The notes beneath the pieces were generated by a model. The model ran no database searches and was not told where the DNA came from. It worked only from the letters and a program-made list of their open reading frames with translations. DNA of 64,000 bases from Rubrivivax sp. (lineage in GTDB: Bacteria; Pseudomonadota; Gammaproteobacteria; Burkholderiales; Burkholderiaceae_C): the NCBI GenBank assembly GCA_027487905.1, contig JAIYCR010000096.1, positions 1-64,000 on the forward strand, given 5' to 3'. The translations under genes and the position numbers were made by a program. Each line of letters opens with the position of its first letter. The stretch's first letter is position 1. This document shows positions 13,825 through 21,905 of the stretch, piece after piece.

Positions 13825-16800
13825 ATGCGACTGGCCGAACTCTCCGTGCGCCGGCCGGTCTTCGCGACCGTGCTCTCGCTGCTGCTGCTGCTGGTGGGCG
13901 GCGTGTCCTTCCTGCAGCTCAGCCTGCGCGAATATCCCCGGGTGGACGAGCCGGTGGTCACCGTCACCACACGGCTGCTGGGTGCATCGTCCGAGGTCAT
14001 CGAGTCGCAGGTGAGCAAGCCGCTGGAGGATTCGATCGCCGGCATCGACGGCGTGGACATCATGACGTCCATCTCGCGCACCGAGCAGAGCCAGATCTCG
14101 GTGCGCTTCAAGCTCAGCAAGGACGCCGACACCGCGGCGGCCGAGGTGCGCGACCGCGTGTCGCGGGTGCGCGGGCGCCTGCCGGCCTCGGTGGACGAGC
14201 CGGTCATCGCCAAGGTCGAGGCCGATGCGTCGCCGACGGTGTGGCTTGCCTACACCAGCGAGACCATGAGCACGCTGGAGCTGACCGAGCTCGTCAACCG
14301 CGTGGTCAAGCCCCGGCTGCAGACGATTCCGGGCGTCGCCGACGTGCAGGTCGGCGGAGACCGCCGCTTCGCGATGCGCATCTGGCTGGACCCCGAGCGC
14401 CTGGCCGCCCACCGCCTGACCGTGCAGGACGTCGAGGACGCGCTGCGCCGGCAGAACCTGGAGGTTCCCGCAGGCCGCATCGAAAGCCAGAAGCGCGAAT
14501 TCAGCGTCACCTCGCGCACCGACCTCAACACGGTCGAGCAGTTCGGTCAGATCGCCCTGCGCACGAACGGCGGCTACACCATCCGTCTGCGCGACGTCGC
14601 ACGGGTGGAGGAGGGCGCGGCGAGCGAACGCAGCCGCGTGCGCCTGAACGGCGTGCCTTCGGTGAGCACCGGCATCGTCCGCAATGCCACCGCGAACCCG
14701 CTGGAGGTGGCCGCCGGCGTGCGCAAGATGATGCCGCTCATCCAGCGCGACCTGCCCGCTTCGGTCACCGTGGCCCTGGCCAACGACCTGTCGGTCTTCA
14801 TCGACCGCTCCATCAAGGCCGTCTACCAGACCGTCATCGAGGCGGTGGTGCTGGTGGCGCTGGTGGTGTTCGTCTTCCTGCGCACGATGCGCGCGTCCAT
14901 CATCCCGCTGGTCACCATTCCGGTGAGCCTCATCGGCACCTTCGCGCTCATCGCGCTGGCCGGCTTCACCATCAACACGCTCACGCTGCTGGCCCTGGTG
15001 CTGGCCATCGGTCTGGTGGTGGACGACGCCATCGTGGTGCTGGAGAACATCTACCGCCGCATCGAACAGGGGCTGACACCCTTCCAGGCCGCCATCAAGG
15101 GCGTGCGCGAGATCGCCTTCGCTGTCGTCGCGATGACGCTCACGCTGGCGGCGGTGTTCGCGCCGCTGGCCTTCACGCCGGGGCGCACCGGCCGGCTGTT
15201 CGGCGAGTTCGCGCTGACGCTGGCCGGCGCGGTGCTGGTGTCCGGCTTCGTCGCGCTGACGCTCACACCCATGATGTGCAGCAAGCTGCTGCGCCATGTG
15301 GAGAAGCCCGGCCGGTTCGACCGCTTCATGGAGTCGGCCCTCGACGGCCTGACCCGCGCCTATGGCCGTGCACTCGGCTGGAGCCTGCGCCACCGCTGGC
15401 TGGTGGTGGCCGTGATGCTGGCCTCCGCGGGCGGCAGCGGCTGGCTCTTCACCACGACCAAGAGCGAGCTCTCGCCCATCGAGGACCGCGGCGCCATCGC
15501 GATGCCCATCCGCGCACCGGATGGCTCCACGCTCGAGTACACCGCCCGCTATCTGGACGAGATCGAGCGCATCGCCGCCCAATACCCCGAGTTCGACCGC
15601 CGCTTCATGTTCATCGGCGGCGGCCAGGTGTCCAGCGCCTTCGGCGTGCTGCGCACCGTCGATTGGTCCGAGCGTGAGCGCAGCACCATCGAGCTGCAGC
15701 AAAAGCTGCTGCCCCAGCTGATGGCCCTGCCCGGCGTGAGTGCCTTTCCGGTCACGCCGCCCAGCCTGGGCCAGGGCTTCCGGGAGCGGCCGGTGACTTT
15801 CGTGCTGGTGAGCAACGACAGCTACGAGGGCATGGCCCGCGTCGCGCAGCAGATGCTCGCCGAGATGCAGCGCAACCCCGGCCTGGTGCAGGCCGATTCC
15901 GACCTGCAGCTGAACAAGCCGGAGATCTTCCTCGACGTCGACCGCGCGCGGGCCGCGGACCTGGGGGTGTCGGTCGAGTCGGTGGCGCGCGCGGTGGAGA
16001 CCATGCTGGGCGGGCGGGTGGTCACCCGCTACAAGCGCGAGGCCGACCAGTACGACGTCATCGTGCAGACCGACGCGGGCCGACGCAACACCCCCGAGGA
16101 CATCGAGCGCATCTTCGTGCGCGGCCGCAACGACGCGCTGGTGCCGCTGTCGGCGCTGGTGAAGGTGCGCGAGGCGGTCAGCCCGCGCGAGCTCAACCGC
16201 TTCAACCAGCGCCGTGCGGTGACCATCACCGCCAACCTCGCCCCGGGCTACACGCTGGGTCAGGCGCTCGAATTCATGGACGCCACCGCCGCCAAGGTGC
16301 TGCCCGCGGGCTATGCCACCGAGCTCAACGGCGTGTCACGCGAGTTCCGCGCCTCCGCCGGGGCGCTGGGCGTGGTCTTCGTGCTGGCGCTGGTCTTCAT
16401 CTTCCTGGTGCTGGCCGCGCAGTTCGAGAGCTTCGTCGACCCCATCGTCATCCTGCTGTCGGTGCCGCTGTCCATGGTGGGCGCGCTGGCCGCGCTGCAG
16501 TGGAGCGGCGGCACGCTCAATGTCTATTCGCAGATCGGGCTGATCACCCTGGTGGGGCTGATCACCAAGCACGGCATCCTGATCGTGGAGTTCGGCAACC
16601 AGCTGCGCCGGCAGGGCCTGACGGTGGTCGAGGCGGTGGTGGACGCAGCCACGCTGCGCCTGCGCCCCATCCTGATGACCACGGGCGCGATGGTGCTGGG
16701 TGCGGTGCCGCTGGCGCTGGCCAGCGGTGCCGGTGCGGAAAGCCGCCAGCAGATCGGCTGGGTGATCATCGGCGGCATGACGGTGGGCACGCTGCTCACG

Positions 16801-16941
16801 CTCTTCGTGGTGCCCACGGTCTACACGCTGCTGGCGCGCCGCCAGGTGCCCGGCGAGATCGAGACCCCCGAGGTGGCCGACGAGCCGTCGCGCGACGCTT
16901 CGCGCGATGCGGTGGACAGCGACTGGGCGCTGCAGAAGTGA
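13825..16941 (+). CDS. RND multidrug-type efflux permease (HAE1/AcrB family)
   Basis: 1038 residues, full length for the hydrophobe/amphiphile branch. It starts with the usual LSVRRPVFATVLSLLLLLVGG helix (first membrane segment). TM4 carries the proton-relay acidic pair in LVVDDAIVVLENIYRR. Two large periplasmic domains and a second set of helices (VLALVFIFLVLAAQFESF, GLITKHGILIVEFGNQL) complete the fold. It exports hydrophobic compounds from the periplasm and inner membrane by proton antiport, together with the adaptor 18 bases upstream. Substrate unknown. The subfamily looks like the MexF/AcrB-type pumps with a short DEP-rich C-terminal tail. Confidence 0.95.
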   Translation: MRLAELSVRRPVFATVLSLLLLLVGGVSFLQLSLREYPRVDEPVVTVTTRLLGASSEVIESQVSKPLEDSIAGIDGVDIMTSISRTEQSQISVRFKLSKDADTAAAEVRDRVSRVRGRLPASVDEPVIAKVEADASPTVWLAYTSETMSTLELTELVNRVVKPRLQTIPGVADVQVGGDRRFAMRIWLDPERLAAHRLTVQDVEDALRRQNLEVPAGRIESQKREFSVTSRTDLNTVEQFGQIALRTNGGYTIRLRDVARVEEGAASERSRVRLNGVPSVSTGIVRNATANPLEVAAGVRKMMPLIQRDLPASVTVALANDLSVFIDRSIKAVYQTVIEAVVLVALVVFVFLRTMRASIIPLVTIPVSLIGTFALIALAGFTINTLTLLALVLAIGLVVDDAIVVLENIYRRIEQGLTPFQAAIKGVREIAFAVVAMTLTLAAVFAPLAFTPGRTGRLFGEFALTLAGAVLVSGFVALTLTPMMCSKLLRHVEKPGRFDRFMESALDGLTRAYGRALGWSLRHRWLVVAVMLASAGGSGWLFTTTKSELSPIEDRGAIAMPIRAPDGSTLEYTARYLDEIERIAAQYPEFDRRFMFIGGGQVSSAFGVLRTVDWSERERSTIELQQKLLPQLMALPGVSAFPVTPPSLGQGFRERPVTFVLVSNDSYEGMARVAQQMLAEMQRNPGLVQADSDLQLNKPEIFLDVDRARAADLGVSVESVARAVETMLGGRVVTRYKREADQYDVIVQTDAGRRNTPEDIERIFVRGRNDALVPLSALVKVREAVSPRELNRFNQRRAVTITANLAPGYTLGQALEFMDATAAKVLPAGYATELNGVSREFRASAGALGVVFVLALVFIFLVLAAQFESFVDPIVILLSVPLSMVGALAALQWSGGTLNVYSQIGLITLVGLITKHGILIVEFGNQLRRQGLTVVEAVVDAATLRLRPILMTTGAMVLGAVPLALASGAGAESRQQIGWVIIGGMTVGTLLTLFVVPTVYTLLARRQVPGEIETPEVADEPSRDASRDAVDSDWALQK

Positions 16942-19023: not shown

Positions 19024-19947
19024 ATGAACTTCAACGACAGCGCGCTGGCGCCTCTGGGTCGATGGCCGGCTGCCTTCGCCCAGGGCGTGGGCGTGGTCCT
19101 GCGCGACATCGGCAATGGCCTGCTCGAGATCAGCCACAACCTGCTCGCCCTGATCGGGCTGGCGGTGCTGGCGGTGAGCGTCTTCGTCGGCAGCCACCCG
19201 CAGATGCTGCAGGACGTGGAGACGCGCACGCTTGACTGGCTGCAGGGCAGGCTGGTGGAGCGCATGCCCGCCTCCGAGCGCCTGGCCCAGGCGATGGCGC
19301 AGCCCGAGGCGGTCGAGCGGGCCACCGCCGCCGACCCCAGCGCGCTGGACCGGCAGCAAGGCCGCATGGCGCAGTGGCTGGCGCGTCGCTACAAGGTGGC
19401 GCCCGAGCCGGTCGCCCGCCTGGTGCAGGAGGCCTGGCACCTGGGCGCCAAGGCCGATGTCGACCCGGCGCTCATCCTGGCCATCATGGCCATCGAGTCC
19501 AGCTTCAACCCCTTTGCCCAAAGCGCGGTCGGTGCCCAGGGCTTGATGCAGGTGATGACCCGGGTGCACGACGACAAGTTCGAGGCCTTCGGCGGCAACC
19601 ACGCCGCCTTCGACCCGGTGGCCAACCTGCGGGTGGGGGTGCAGATCCTGAAGGAATGCATCCGGCGCGCCGGATCGGTCGAAGGGGGGCTGCGCTTCTA
19701 CGTGGGTGCGGCCAACCTGCCGGACGATGGCGGCTACGCGGCCCGGGTGATGGCCGAGCGCGAGCACCTGCGTCGGGTCGCGCTGGGCCACGCGGTGCCC
19801 TTCAACGTGCCCACCAACCTGGCCCAGGTGCCCGCTGCGACGACGCCCGCCCCGCCGGCTGCCAAGGCGGCGTCCGCCGACACCGCGCCGACGCTGGCAG
19901 CGGCTCCCGAGGGCCTGTCGGTGCCGGCGCGCATCGCCGGTCTCTGA
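19024..19947 (+). CDS. lytic transglycosylase (SLT domain)
   Basis: 307 residues from ATG 19024, which has a good AAAGGAG site 4 bases upstream; the frame is open to 18856 but lacks a better start. An N-terminal hydrophobic helix (LIGLAVLAVSVFVG, about residues 46-60) anchors it. The SLT domain covers about residues 140-255, with catalytic Glu158 in AIESSFNPFAQS, then GAQGLMQVM and the FYVGAANLPDDGGYAARVM region. The last 45 residues are Ala/Pro-rich. It cleaves peptidoglycan glycan strands with formation of 1,6-anhydro ends, acting in the periplasm. No cell-wall partner gene is adjacent. Confidence 0.9.
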   Translation: MNFNDSALAPLGRWPAAFAQGVGVVLRDIGNGLLEISHNLLALIGLAVLAVSVFVGSHPQMLQDVETRTLDWLQGRLVERMPASERLAQAMAQPEAVERATAADPSALDRQQGRMAQWLARRYKVAPEPVARLVQEAWHLGAKADVDPALILAIMAIESSFNPFAQSAVGAQGLMQVMTRVHDDKFEAFGGNHAAFDPVANLRVGVQILKECIRRAGSVEGGLRFYVGAANLPDDGGYAARVMAEREHLRRVALGHAVPFNVPTNLAQVPAATTPAPPAAKAASADTAPTLAAAPEGLSVPARIAGL

Positions 19948-19983
19948 ACGCGCCGGGCCTGCCCGATACACTCGATGGTGCTG

Positions 19984-20103
19984 CGCGACTGGCGATAGGC
20001 CCTGACGGGTCCGAGGTGGTGAACCACCGGGAAGCGCAGCGGACACCGCCTCAGGCGCCGACCCCGGCGCCCCGCCGATGTCCTCAGCCGTTCGCCTGGG
20101 CAC
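19984..20103 (+). promoter_or_regulatory. ZTP (pfl-motif) riboswitch upstream of glyA
   Basis: The leader carries both conserved halves of the ZTP/ZMP riboswitch. The 5' half has GCGACTGGCG (19984-19993), then GGTGGTGAACCACCGGGAAG (20015-20034). The 3' half has CCGTTCGCCTGGGCA (20088-20102), which forms the ligand pocket and pseudoknot in known pfl RNAs. A TACACT -10-like element ends 11 bases before it (19967-19972). A stem GAGCCCGG/CCGGGaCTC at 20129-20150 may be part of the expression platform. ZTP riboswitches sense the purine intermediate that accumulates when folate one-carbon units run low and switch on one-carbon genes such as glyA, which fits the gene here. Confidence 0.88.
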
Positions 20104-20188
20104 CCCGCCACCGTGTCTCCTGCGCGCCGAGCCCGGTCGCGCCGGGACTCGCCGGGCGGGTCCACGCCTTGCACCGAGAACCGCCCCC

Positions 20189-21439
20189 ATGTTCGATCGC
20201 ACCACGTCCACCATCGCCCAGGTCGACCCCGAGCTCTGGACCGTCATCCAGCAGGAGAACGCGCGCCAGGAGGCGCACATCGAGCTCATCGCCTCCGAGA
20301 ACTACGCCTCGCCGGCCGTCATGGCCGCGCAGGGCAGCCAGCTGACCAACAAGTACGCCGAGGGTTACCCCGGCAAGCGCTACTACGGCGGCTGCGAGTT
20401 CGTCGACGTGGCCGAGACCCTGGCCATCGAGCGCCTGAAGCAGCTGTTCGGGGCAGGCTTCGCCAACGTGCAGGCCAACTCCGGTTCGCAGGCCAACCAG
20501 GCGGTGTTCTTCGGCCTGCTCAACCCGGGCGACACCATCATGGGCATGAGCCTGGCCGAAGGCGGCCACCTCACCCACGGCATGCCGCTGAACATGAGCG
20601 GCAAGTGGTTCAAGGTGGTGAGCTACGGCCTGGACGCGAACGAGGCCATCGACTACGACGCCATGGAGCGCCTGGCCCACGAGCACAAGCCCCGGCTCAT
20701 CATCGCCGGCGCCTCGGCCTACAGCCTGCGCATCGACTTCGAGCGCTTTGCCCGCGTGGCCAAGGCCATCGGCGCGATCTTCATGGTCGACATGGCGCAC
20801 TACTCCGGCCTCATCGCCGGCGGTGTCTACCCGAACCCGCTGCCCTTCGCGGACGTCGTCACCTCCACCACCCACAAGGGCCTGCGCGGCCCGCGCGGCG
20901 GCATCATCCTCACCAACCACGAGGACATCGCCAAGAAGGTGAACAGCGCCATCTTCCCCGGCATCCAGGGCGGGCCGCTGATGCACGTGATCGCCGCCAA
21001 GGCGGTGGCTTTCCAGGAAGCGCTGCAGCCGGCGTTCAAGGTCTATCAGCAGCAGGTGGTGGCCAACGCCCGCGTGCTGGCCGAAACCCTCATCGAGCGC
21101 GGCCTGCGCATCGTCAGCGGCCGCACCGAGAGCCATGTGATGCTGGTCGACCTGCGTCCCAAGGGCCTGACCGGCAAGGAAGCCGAGGCCGTGCTGGGCC
21201 GCGCCCACATGACCTGCAACAAGAACGGCATCCCGAACGACCCGCAAAAGCCGATGGTGACCAGCGGCATCCGCCTGGGCACGCCGGCCATGACGACCCG
21301 GGGCTTCAAGGAAGCCGAGGCGCGCCTGACGGGCGAGCTCATCGCCGACGTGCTCGACCGTCCTCAGGACGAGGCGCGCCTGGCCGAGGTGCGCGCACGG
21401 GTGGAGGCGCTGACCCGCGACTTCCCCGTCTACCGCTGA
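20189..21439 (+). CDS. glyA: serine hydroxymethyltransferase
   Basis: 416 residues, normal length. ATG 20189 starts [17 protein letters not shown]; the frame runs upstream into the riboswitch and that part is not coding. Hallmarks are [43 protein letters not shown] and the PLP-binding Lys230 in [13 protein letters not shown]. It converts serine and tetrahydrofolate to glycine and 5,10-methylene-tetrahydrofolate, the main source of one-carbon units for purine and thymidylate synthesis. Control by the ZTP riboswitch in the leader fits this role. nrdR follows 22 bases downstream, a common glyA-nrdR(-rib) order in betaproteobacteria. Confidence 0.97.
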
Positions 21440-21461: not shown

Positions 21462-21905
21462 GTGCGCTGCCCCTTCTGTCCCAGCGAGGACACGCAGGTC
21501 GTCGAGACGCGCGAGTCCGACGAAGGCGACGTCGTCCGGCGGCGTCGCCGCTGCACCCGCTGCGACAAGCGTTTCACCACCTACGAGCGCGCCGAGATCG
21601 CACTGCCCACGGTGGTGAAGAAGGATGGCGCCCGGGTGGAGTTCGACCCCGCCAAGCTGCGCGCTTCCATGCTGCTGGCCCTGCGCAAGCGGCCGGTGAG
21701 CGTCGAGCAGGTCGATGCCGCGCTCGATCGCATCCAGGACAAGCTGCTGGCTGGCGCCGCCAAGGAAGTGCCCACGACCCGGCTGGGCGAACTGGTGATG
21801 CGCGAACTCAAGCGCATCGACAAGGTCGCCTATGTCCGTTTCGCGTCGGTCTACCGATCCTTCGAGGATGTCGAGGAGTTCCGCCAGCTGCTCGAGGGCA
21901 TCTGA
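21462..21905 (+). CDS. nrdR: transcriptional repressor NrdR
   Basis: 147 residues from GTG 21462. The N-terminal zinc ribbon uses Cys3, Cys6, Cys31 and Cys34; the ATP-cone domain follows (about residues 46-136, [20 protein letters not shown]). NrdR represses ribonucleotide reductase genes when dATP is bound. Its frequent place is between glyA and the riboflavin genes, as here, though the minor pilin genes are inserted between them in this genome. Confidence 0.96.

Follow-up and report, generated by a model that had tools for sequence, protein, structure and literature searches.

A ZTP riboswitch ahead of glyA in Rubrivivax, and a putative strand-exchange platform at the ribosome-binding site in its relatives

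The glyA leader of a Rubrivivax sp. contig almost certainly carries a ZTP riboswitch, at positions 19975-20108 on the forward strand of the 64,000-nucleotide stretch that was analysed (the window). A ZTP riboswitch ahead of glyA is an already known type, to which this copy adds a member: glyA is among the five genes most commonly associated with the pfl motif (Weinberg 2010, PMC2864571), and a ZTP riboswitch upstream of glyA has been reported in Herbaspirillum seropedicae as Hsnc029 (PMC7011215). Comparison with related leaders adds a candidate mode of action. Complementarity between the 3′ strand of the P3 helix and a CUGCC box shortly ahead of the start codon is suggestive of translational ON control by strand exchange. 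The overall explanation that we favour is that the riboswitch raises GlyA through strand exchange at the ribosome-binding site of the glyA leader. We regard the ON direction as very probable, and strand exchange at the ribosome-binding site as a somewhat probable platform for the window's family, judging from sequence. If the comparative reading is true, it provides a testable account of how terminator-free proteobacterial ZTP riboswitches may act.

A cmscan of the window against all Rfam families gave RF01750 (ZMP-ZTP) as the sole family at or above its cut-off, with 39.8 bits against a gathering score of 39 (E 0.0047); the match spans the full model (1-86), and its margin over the cut-off is small. 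The original prediction of a ZTP riboswitch had named a covariance-model scan as its check, and it has passed. The location that it gave, 19984-20103, stands, but the Rfam match extends nine bases beyond it on the 5′ side and five on the 3′ side. In the whole genome the same copy has an E-value of 7.6e-5 and is the sole ZTP match over the cut-off; the sub-threshold matches, of which the best reaches 24.7 bits, are taken as chance. The marginal score is of little worry, since RF01750 exceeds the cut-off in 193 of the 299 genomes of the window's family (its own included), with a best score of 63.1 bits. Inserts within the aptamer probably lower the covariance score.

The cmscan alignment contains P1, P2 and P3 together with the conserved GGCG and CGCCUGGGC blocks, and flags non-standard pairs at the two outer P1 pairs and at one P3 pair. 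A pseudoknot between L3 and J1/2 is possible, and inspection finds its strands, GGCG (19991-19994) and CGCC (20093-20096), to be complementary. Both predicted halves of the pfl motif are found in order. ACTGGCG (19988-19994) holds the end of P1 and the J1/2 pseudoknot strand; it is followed by a predicted hairpin inserted in J1/2 (19995-20012, fold z about -2.0), which lies mostly outside the Rfam consensus, by P2 (GGTGG..ACCACC, about 20015-20028), and by P3 with its loop L3 (GCCGTTCGCCTGGGC, 20087-20101), where GCC 20087-20089 faces GGC 20099-20101. The window thus matches RF01750 over its full model and in its glyA association, and differs in the J1/2 hairpin insert, in a long linker before P3, and in that no terminator-like site was found.

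The gene downstream is glyA, as predicted: a serine hydroxymethyltransferase of 416 amino acids (20189-21439; Pfam SHMT, E 6.2e-166), so that the element sits in the leader of a one-carbon/purine-type gene, with 96 nt between the P3 box and the start codon. Binding of ZMP/ZTP by the window copy is predicted from its sequence, and a change in expression has been reported for a relative by reporter: in Cupriavidus metallidurans a pfl-glyA-lacZ fusion is induced by trimethoprim (PMC10882993). Both the ON direction and the claim that the element controls glyA draw support from that induction.

Just upstream of the aptamer, the -10-like box that had been noted is TACACT (19967-19972). A TANNNT sequence occurs 18-22 nt ahead of ACTGGCG in 153 of 157 family leaders, a position range picked after an initial look at 90 leaders, and is TACACT in 107 of those 153. 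We infer that transcription starts about 6-7 nt downstream of TACACT, at the 5′ edge of P1. A generic two-hexamer promoter scan of 19850-20250 gave no match, and a simple scan of the same interval for intrinsic terminators, with loops of 3-8 only, gave none either; the earlier remark had been that the expression platform was not obvious, a GC stem at 20129-20150 having no T-run. In terminator-type ZTP platforms a terminator overlaps the 3′ part of the aptamer; the window leader contains no such arrangement.

The riboswitch accounts for a non-coding leader which protein-only annotation would miss, as had been anticipated, or even swallow. The linker of the aptamer contains an in-frame ATG at 20078; a start there would lengthen GlyA to 453 amino acids (20078-21439), and automatic annotation could absorb the riboswitch in this way; the same type of misannotation is discussed for C. 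metallidurans (PMC10882993). The gene upstream of the leader, whose product has an SLT transglycosylase domain, ends at 19947, and nrdR (21462-21905) comes after glyA. Further upstream, at 13825-16941, is an RND efflux pump subunit (Pfam ACR_tran) with no relation to the riboswitch, and a tRNA scan found none.

Of the 299 genomes of the window's family, its own included, 279 have an RF01750 match at E≤1. Sampling at the level of the order gave a match at E≤0.001 in 17 of 200 genomes, of which 13 belong to other families, and sampling at the level of the class in 2 of 274, both within it. Fetched family leaders have the aptamer ahead of glyA and the -10 box in a fixed position, and both motif blocks precede glyA in Rivibacter, Roseateles, Variovorax, Polaromonas, Ramlibacter, Acidovorax, Hydrogenophaga, Cupriavidus and Herbaspirillum. 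Between the GGCG block and P2, all 90 leaders of a subset carry an insert of 17-65 nt, which in 86 of them folds with z below -1 relative to shuffles. Three leaders (L118, L119 and L120), with GlyA about 86% identical, have neither of the motif blocks, nor the CUGCC box; the absence of the motif there is probably a natural loss.

The leaders compared below come from a starting set of 205 loci, of which 157 family leaders were kept, 137 of them distinct by the first 4 and last 18 nt after P3. Left out were seven sub-threshold loci of the window's own genome, three whose stretch contained no match to glyA (L032, L040, L178), four without a readable start (L125, L129, L144, L146), and 21 missing one or both exact motif blocks, of which 18 served as aptamer-free controls and L092, L123 and L179 were omitted; 13 loci of other families were tallied separately from the 157. 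The 90-leader subset excludes L092. A further set of 80 named loci yielded 65 with both blocks and 11 without, four being dropped (two with no start, two with less than 200 nt upstream). The aptamer-free controls therefore number 29 (18 from the first set and 11 from the named set), or 26 distinct by the last 16 nt; their status is defined solely by missing motif blocks, and some possibly come from the same genomes. Family leaders were mostly taken from the best-scoring matches listed, so that weak copies are under-represented, and both the leader counts and the covariation concern related sequences, with statistics that ignore kinship.

We propose that a shortage of 10-formyl-tetrahydrofolate would lead ZMP/ZTP to accumulate and, through the riboswitch, to more GlyA. 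In the absence of ligand, GGGC on the 3′ side of P3 and the bases that follow it would pair with the bases just before the glyA start, forming a long-range helix that would enclose the P4 hairpin and exclude the ribosome. With ligand bound, P3 and the pseudoknot would retain the switching strand and free the ribosome site. The putative pairing is GGCAG/CUGCC in most of the relatives examined, and would persist in the window as a GGGC/GCCC remnant.

This proposal draws on a reading of 90 leaders, many of which end in AGGACUGCC ahead of the start codon. CUGCC is the complement of GGCAG, which consists of the GGGC 3′ strand of P3 and the two bases that follow. In 95 of the 137 distinct leaders, GGGCNNNN can form at least five Watson-Crick pairs with the 18 nt that precede the start codon; dinucleotide shuffles lead one to expect 11.0 such leaders. 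In the earlier 90-leader set the count was 58, with 5.6 expected on the same basis. The remaining 42 of the 137 form fewer than five pairs, which counts against strand exchange. In 89 of the 91 distinct box leaders, the box ends 0-6 nt ahead of the start codon, while the adjacent upstream stretch, -36 to -19, offers at least five pairs in 5 of 108 leaders. The box also goes with the aptamer: of 179 distinct leaders that bear the aptamer, 116 have the box, against 1 of the 29 controls that lack the motif blocks. The box can outlast the Shine-Dalgarno sequence, since no four-base Shine-Dalgarno match is found in 22 of the 91 distinct leaders that have it. Six leaders without CUGCC (L048, L059, L071, L079, L084, L088) have a CAACCC(U)-like motif after P4 and no Shine-Dalgarno that is clear by eye.

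Covariation gives mixed support for pairing between P3 and CUGCC. Counting for it are changes on both sides of the helix: L072 has GGCAC/GUGCC, with complementarity kept, and L076 has GGGCA/UGCCC in a shifted register. L039, from the window's own genus, has GGGCG/CGCCC, with the complement at -18 to -14, upstream of the Shine-Dalgarno, and L114, from another family, has GGGCAU/AUGCCC directly ahead of the start codon. Within the family set the CUGCC box is linked to an AG that follows GGGC, being present in 91 of 117 leaders with AG and in 0 of 20 without; 16 of these 20 form no five-pair helix. In additional named leaders, other families included, this link is absent (21 of 34 against 4 of 8, p 0.69). 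Also counting against the pairing, L206, L233, L261 and L281 keep CUGCC despite changed facing bases, although by inspection L281 is still pairable through two G-U wobbles.

There are two readings to be weighed against strand exchange at this point. One treats the CUGCC box as an independent element, such as a small-RNA target or an initiation enhancer, that happens to accompany the riboswitch. The four leaders that keep CUGCC with a changed partner, and the failure of the AG/CUGCC link in the named set, are what this reading would lead one to expect. We nevertheless consider it improbable, given that the box is nearly confined to leaders with the motif blocks (1 of 29 without them) and that L039, L072, L076 and L114 provide alternative complements. 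The other, which we judge unlikely but less so than a separate element, is that the aptamer acts on transcription, by Rho-dependent termination, or on mRNA decay, and that the CUGCC match arises from other constraints. A Cupriavidus glyA-lacZ operon fusion responds to trimethoprim, which hints at an effect at the mRNA level there (PMC10882993), and the TaRTLEt study reports transcription termination for ZMP-ZTP loci (PMC12121620). Furthermore, in 8 of 13 leaders from other families (1.3 expected) the P3 strand can form at least six pairs with a strand further downstream; this complement starts 23-51 nt after P3 and lies, in 7 of the 8, 27-124 nt ahead of the start codon. Against an action on transcription in the window's family stand the absence of a terminator-like site from the window leader and the placement of the family box immediately before the start codon, with no excess of pairing in the stretch upstream of it. 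We retain strand exchange at the ribosome-binding site as the working explanation for the family.

In unconstrained folds of the 90 leaders, the P3 strand pairs with the last 20 nt at a mean of 0.43 in leaders that have the box and 0.10 in those that lack it, but it also pairs with upstream sequence, at 0.34 and 0.22, respectively. Whole-leader free-energy folding was not decisive, P3 itself being rarely predicted without the pseudoknot (mean at most 0.05). Between P3 and the start codon, leaders exceed their shuffles in stability only slightly (median z -0.8), which is why a stem test anchored at P3 was used. By that test, a P4 stem of at least six pairs lies directly after P3 in 45 of 90 leaders, with 14.3 expected; its sequence varies, and it fits within the proposed long-range helix. 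In the window P4 is a predicted hairpin at 20104-20160 (CCCGCC 20104-20109 with GGCGGG 20155-20160), and the GC stem previously noted at 20129-20150 exists as its distal part. A different helix in the window, between CAGGCG of the linker (20052-20057) and CGCCTG of P3, was rejected as a shared platform, at least six Watson-Crick pairs being found in 11 of 137 leaders with 13.6 expected.

The window's own leader departs from the family pattern. P3 is followed by ACCC, the weak ribosome-binding region is GAGAACCGCCC (20176-20186), and the sequence there, GAGAACCGCCCCC, has no CUGCC box. The proposed switching strand GGGC (20098-20101), defined by comparative pairing, can form four pairs with GCCC at 20183-20186, a length that shuffled sequences match (p 0.75); the duplex is worth -8.2 kcal/mol, compared with medians of -9.9 for box leaders and -5.5 for the others. 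In the unconstrained fold of the window's leader, the P3 strand pairs mainly with the sequence that separates it from the ribosome site (pairing probability 0.77), the value for the last 20 nt being 0.00. The ribosome-binding-site model for the window copy accordingly rests on homology of position only, and that this copy is a diverged form of the family platform, switching by the same strand exchange, is a tentative reading about which we are slightly doubtful.

Such divergence could also mean that the window copy is decaying, with a marginal aptamer, a diverged platform and regulation lost. Its score barely above the cut-off, the 36.2 bits (under the cut-off) of a congener's copy, the missing CUGCC box and the complete absence of the motif blocks from some relatives all fit this picture. 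Yet the aptamer blocks (ACTGGCG, P2 and CGCCTGGGC) and the -10 box are intact, and the inserts that probably lower the score are normal in the family, making decay very improbable.

Other ZTP systems suggest that the same P3 strand may be put to different uses. In Clostridium beijerinckii the pfl riboswitch acts on transcription, by P3 strand exchange into a terminator (review, PMC10907184); the switching strand is shared with our proposal, whereas the competitor proposed here is the ribosome-binding region rather than a terminator strand. In leaders of other families, GGCUGCC lies 24-45 nt after P3 (L101, L108, L109) or GGCUGCCC lies 23 nt after it (L105), in each case complementary to the P3 strand. 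These complements start 69-124 nt ahead of the start codon, and given that distance the output is probably different; they may represent a further type of platform used with this aptamer. Near the aptamers of L101 and L105, the two that were scanned (loops 3-8 only), no terminator-like site was detected. H. seropedicae and C. metallidurans share with the window the same aptamer and gene within the betaproteobacteria (PMC7011215, PMC10882993), but in other Herbaspirillum and Cupriavidus strains (L285, L270, L277, L283) the P3 box lies 150-202 nt before the start, against 96 nt in the window, and no CUGCC box precedes the start codon.

Drawing these comparisons together, we propose that the glyA ZTP riboswitches of the Rubrivivax-Variovorax-Acidovorax group share one translational platform, in which the P3 3′ strand and its AG are captured, when ligand is absent, by a CUGCC fused to the Shine-Dalgarno, with P4 between, that in neighbouring families the P3 strand faces its complement elsewhere, one strand being wired to different outputs, and that the window has diverged; for this wider proposal we consider the balance to be even. 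A covariation study built its model of the whole ZTP riboswitch from 187 members with predicted intrinsic terminators and then searched 3458 Rfam sequences (PMC13273304); because it derives from terminator-bearing members, terminator-free ones may not be covered by it. In the available portions of the literature searched (PMC7011215, PMC2864571, PMC13273304, PMC12121620, PMC10907184, PMC11476745, PMC10882993) we found no description of the proposed ribosome-binding-site platform; the search was partial, and we make no claim that it is unpublished.

A second ZTP aptamer, of 55.8 bits, was observed in one genome of the set (G257; locus L032, minus strand, 1088-1581). It precedes a 131-amino-acid open reading frame that encodes FolB, dihydroneopterin aldolase (Pfam FolB, E 1.3e-27).
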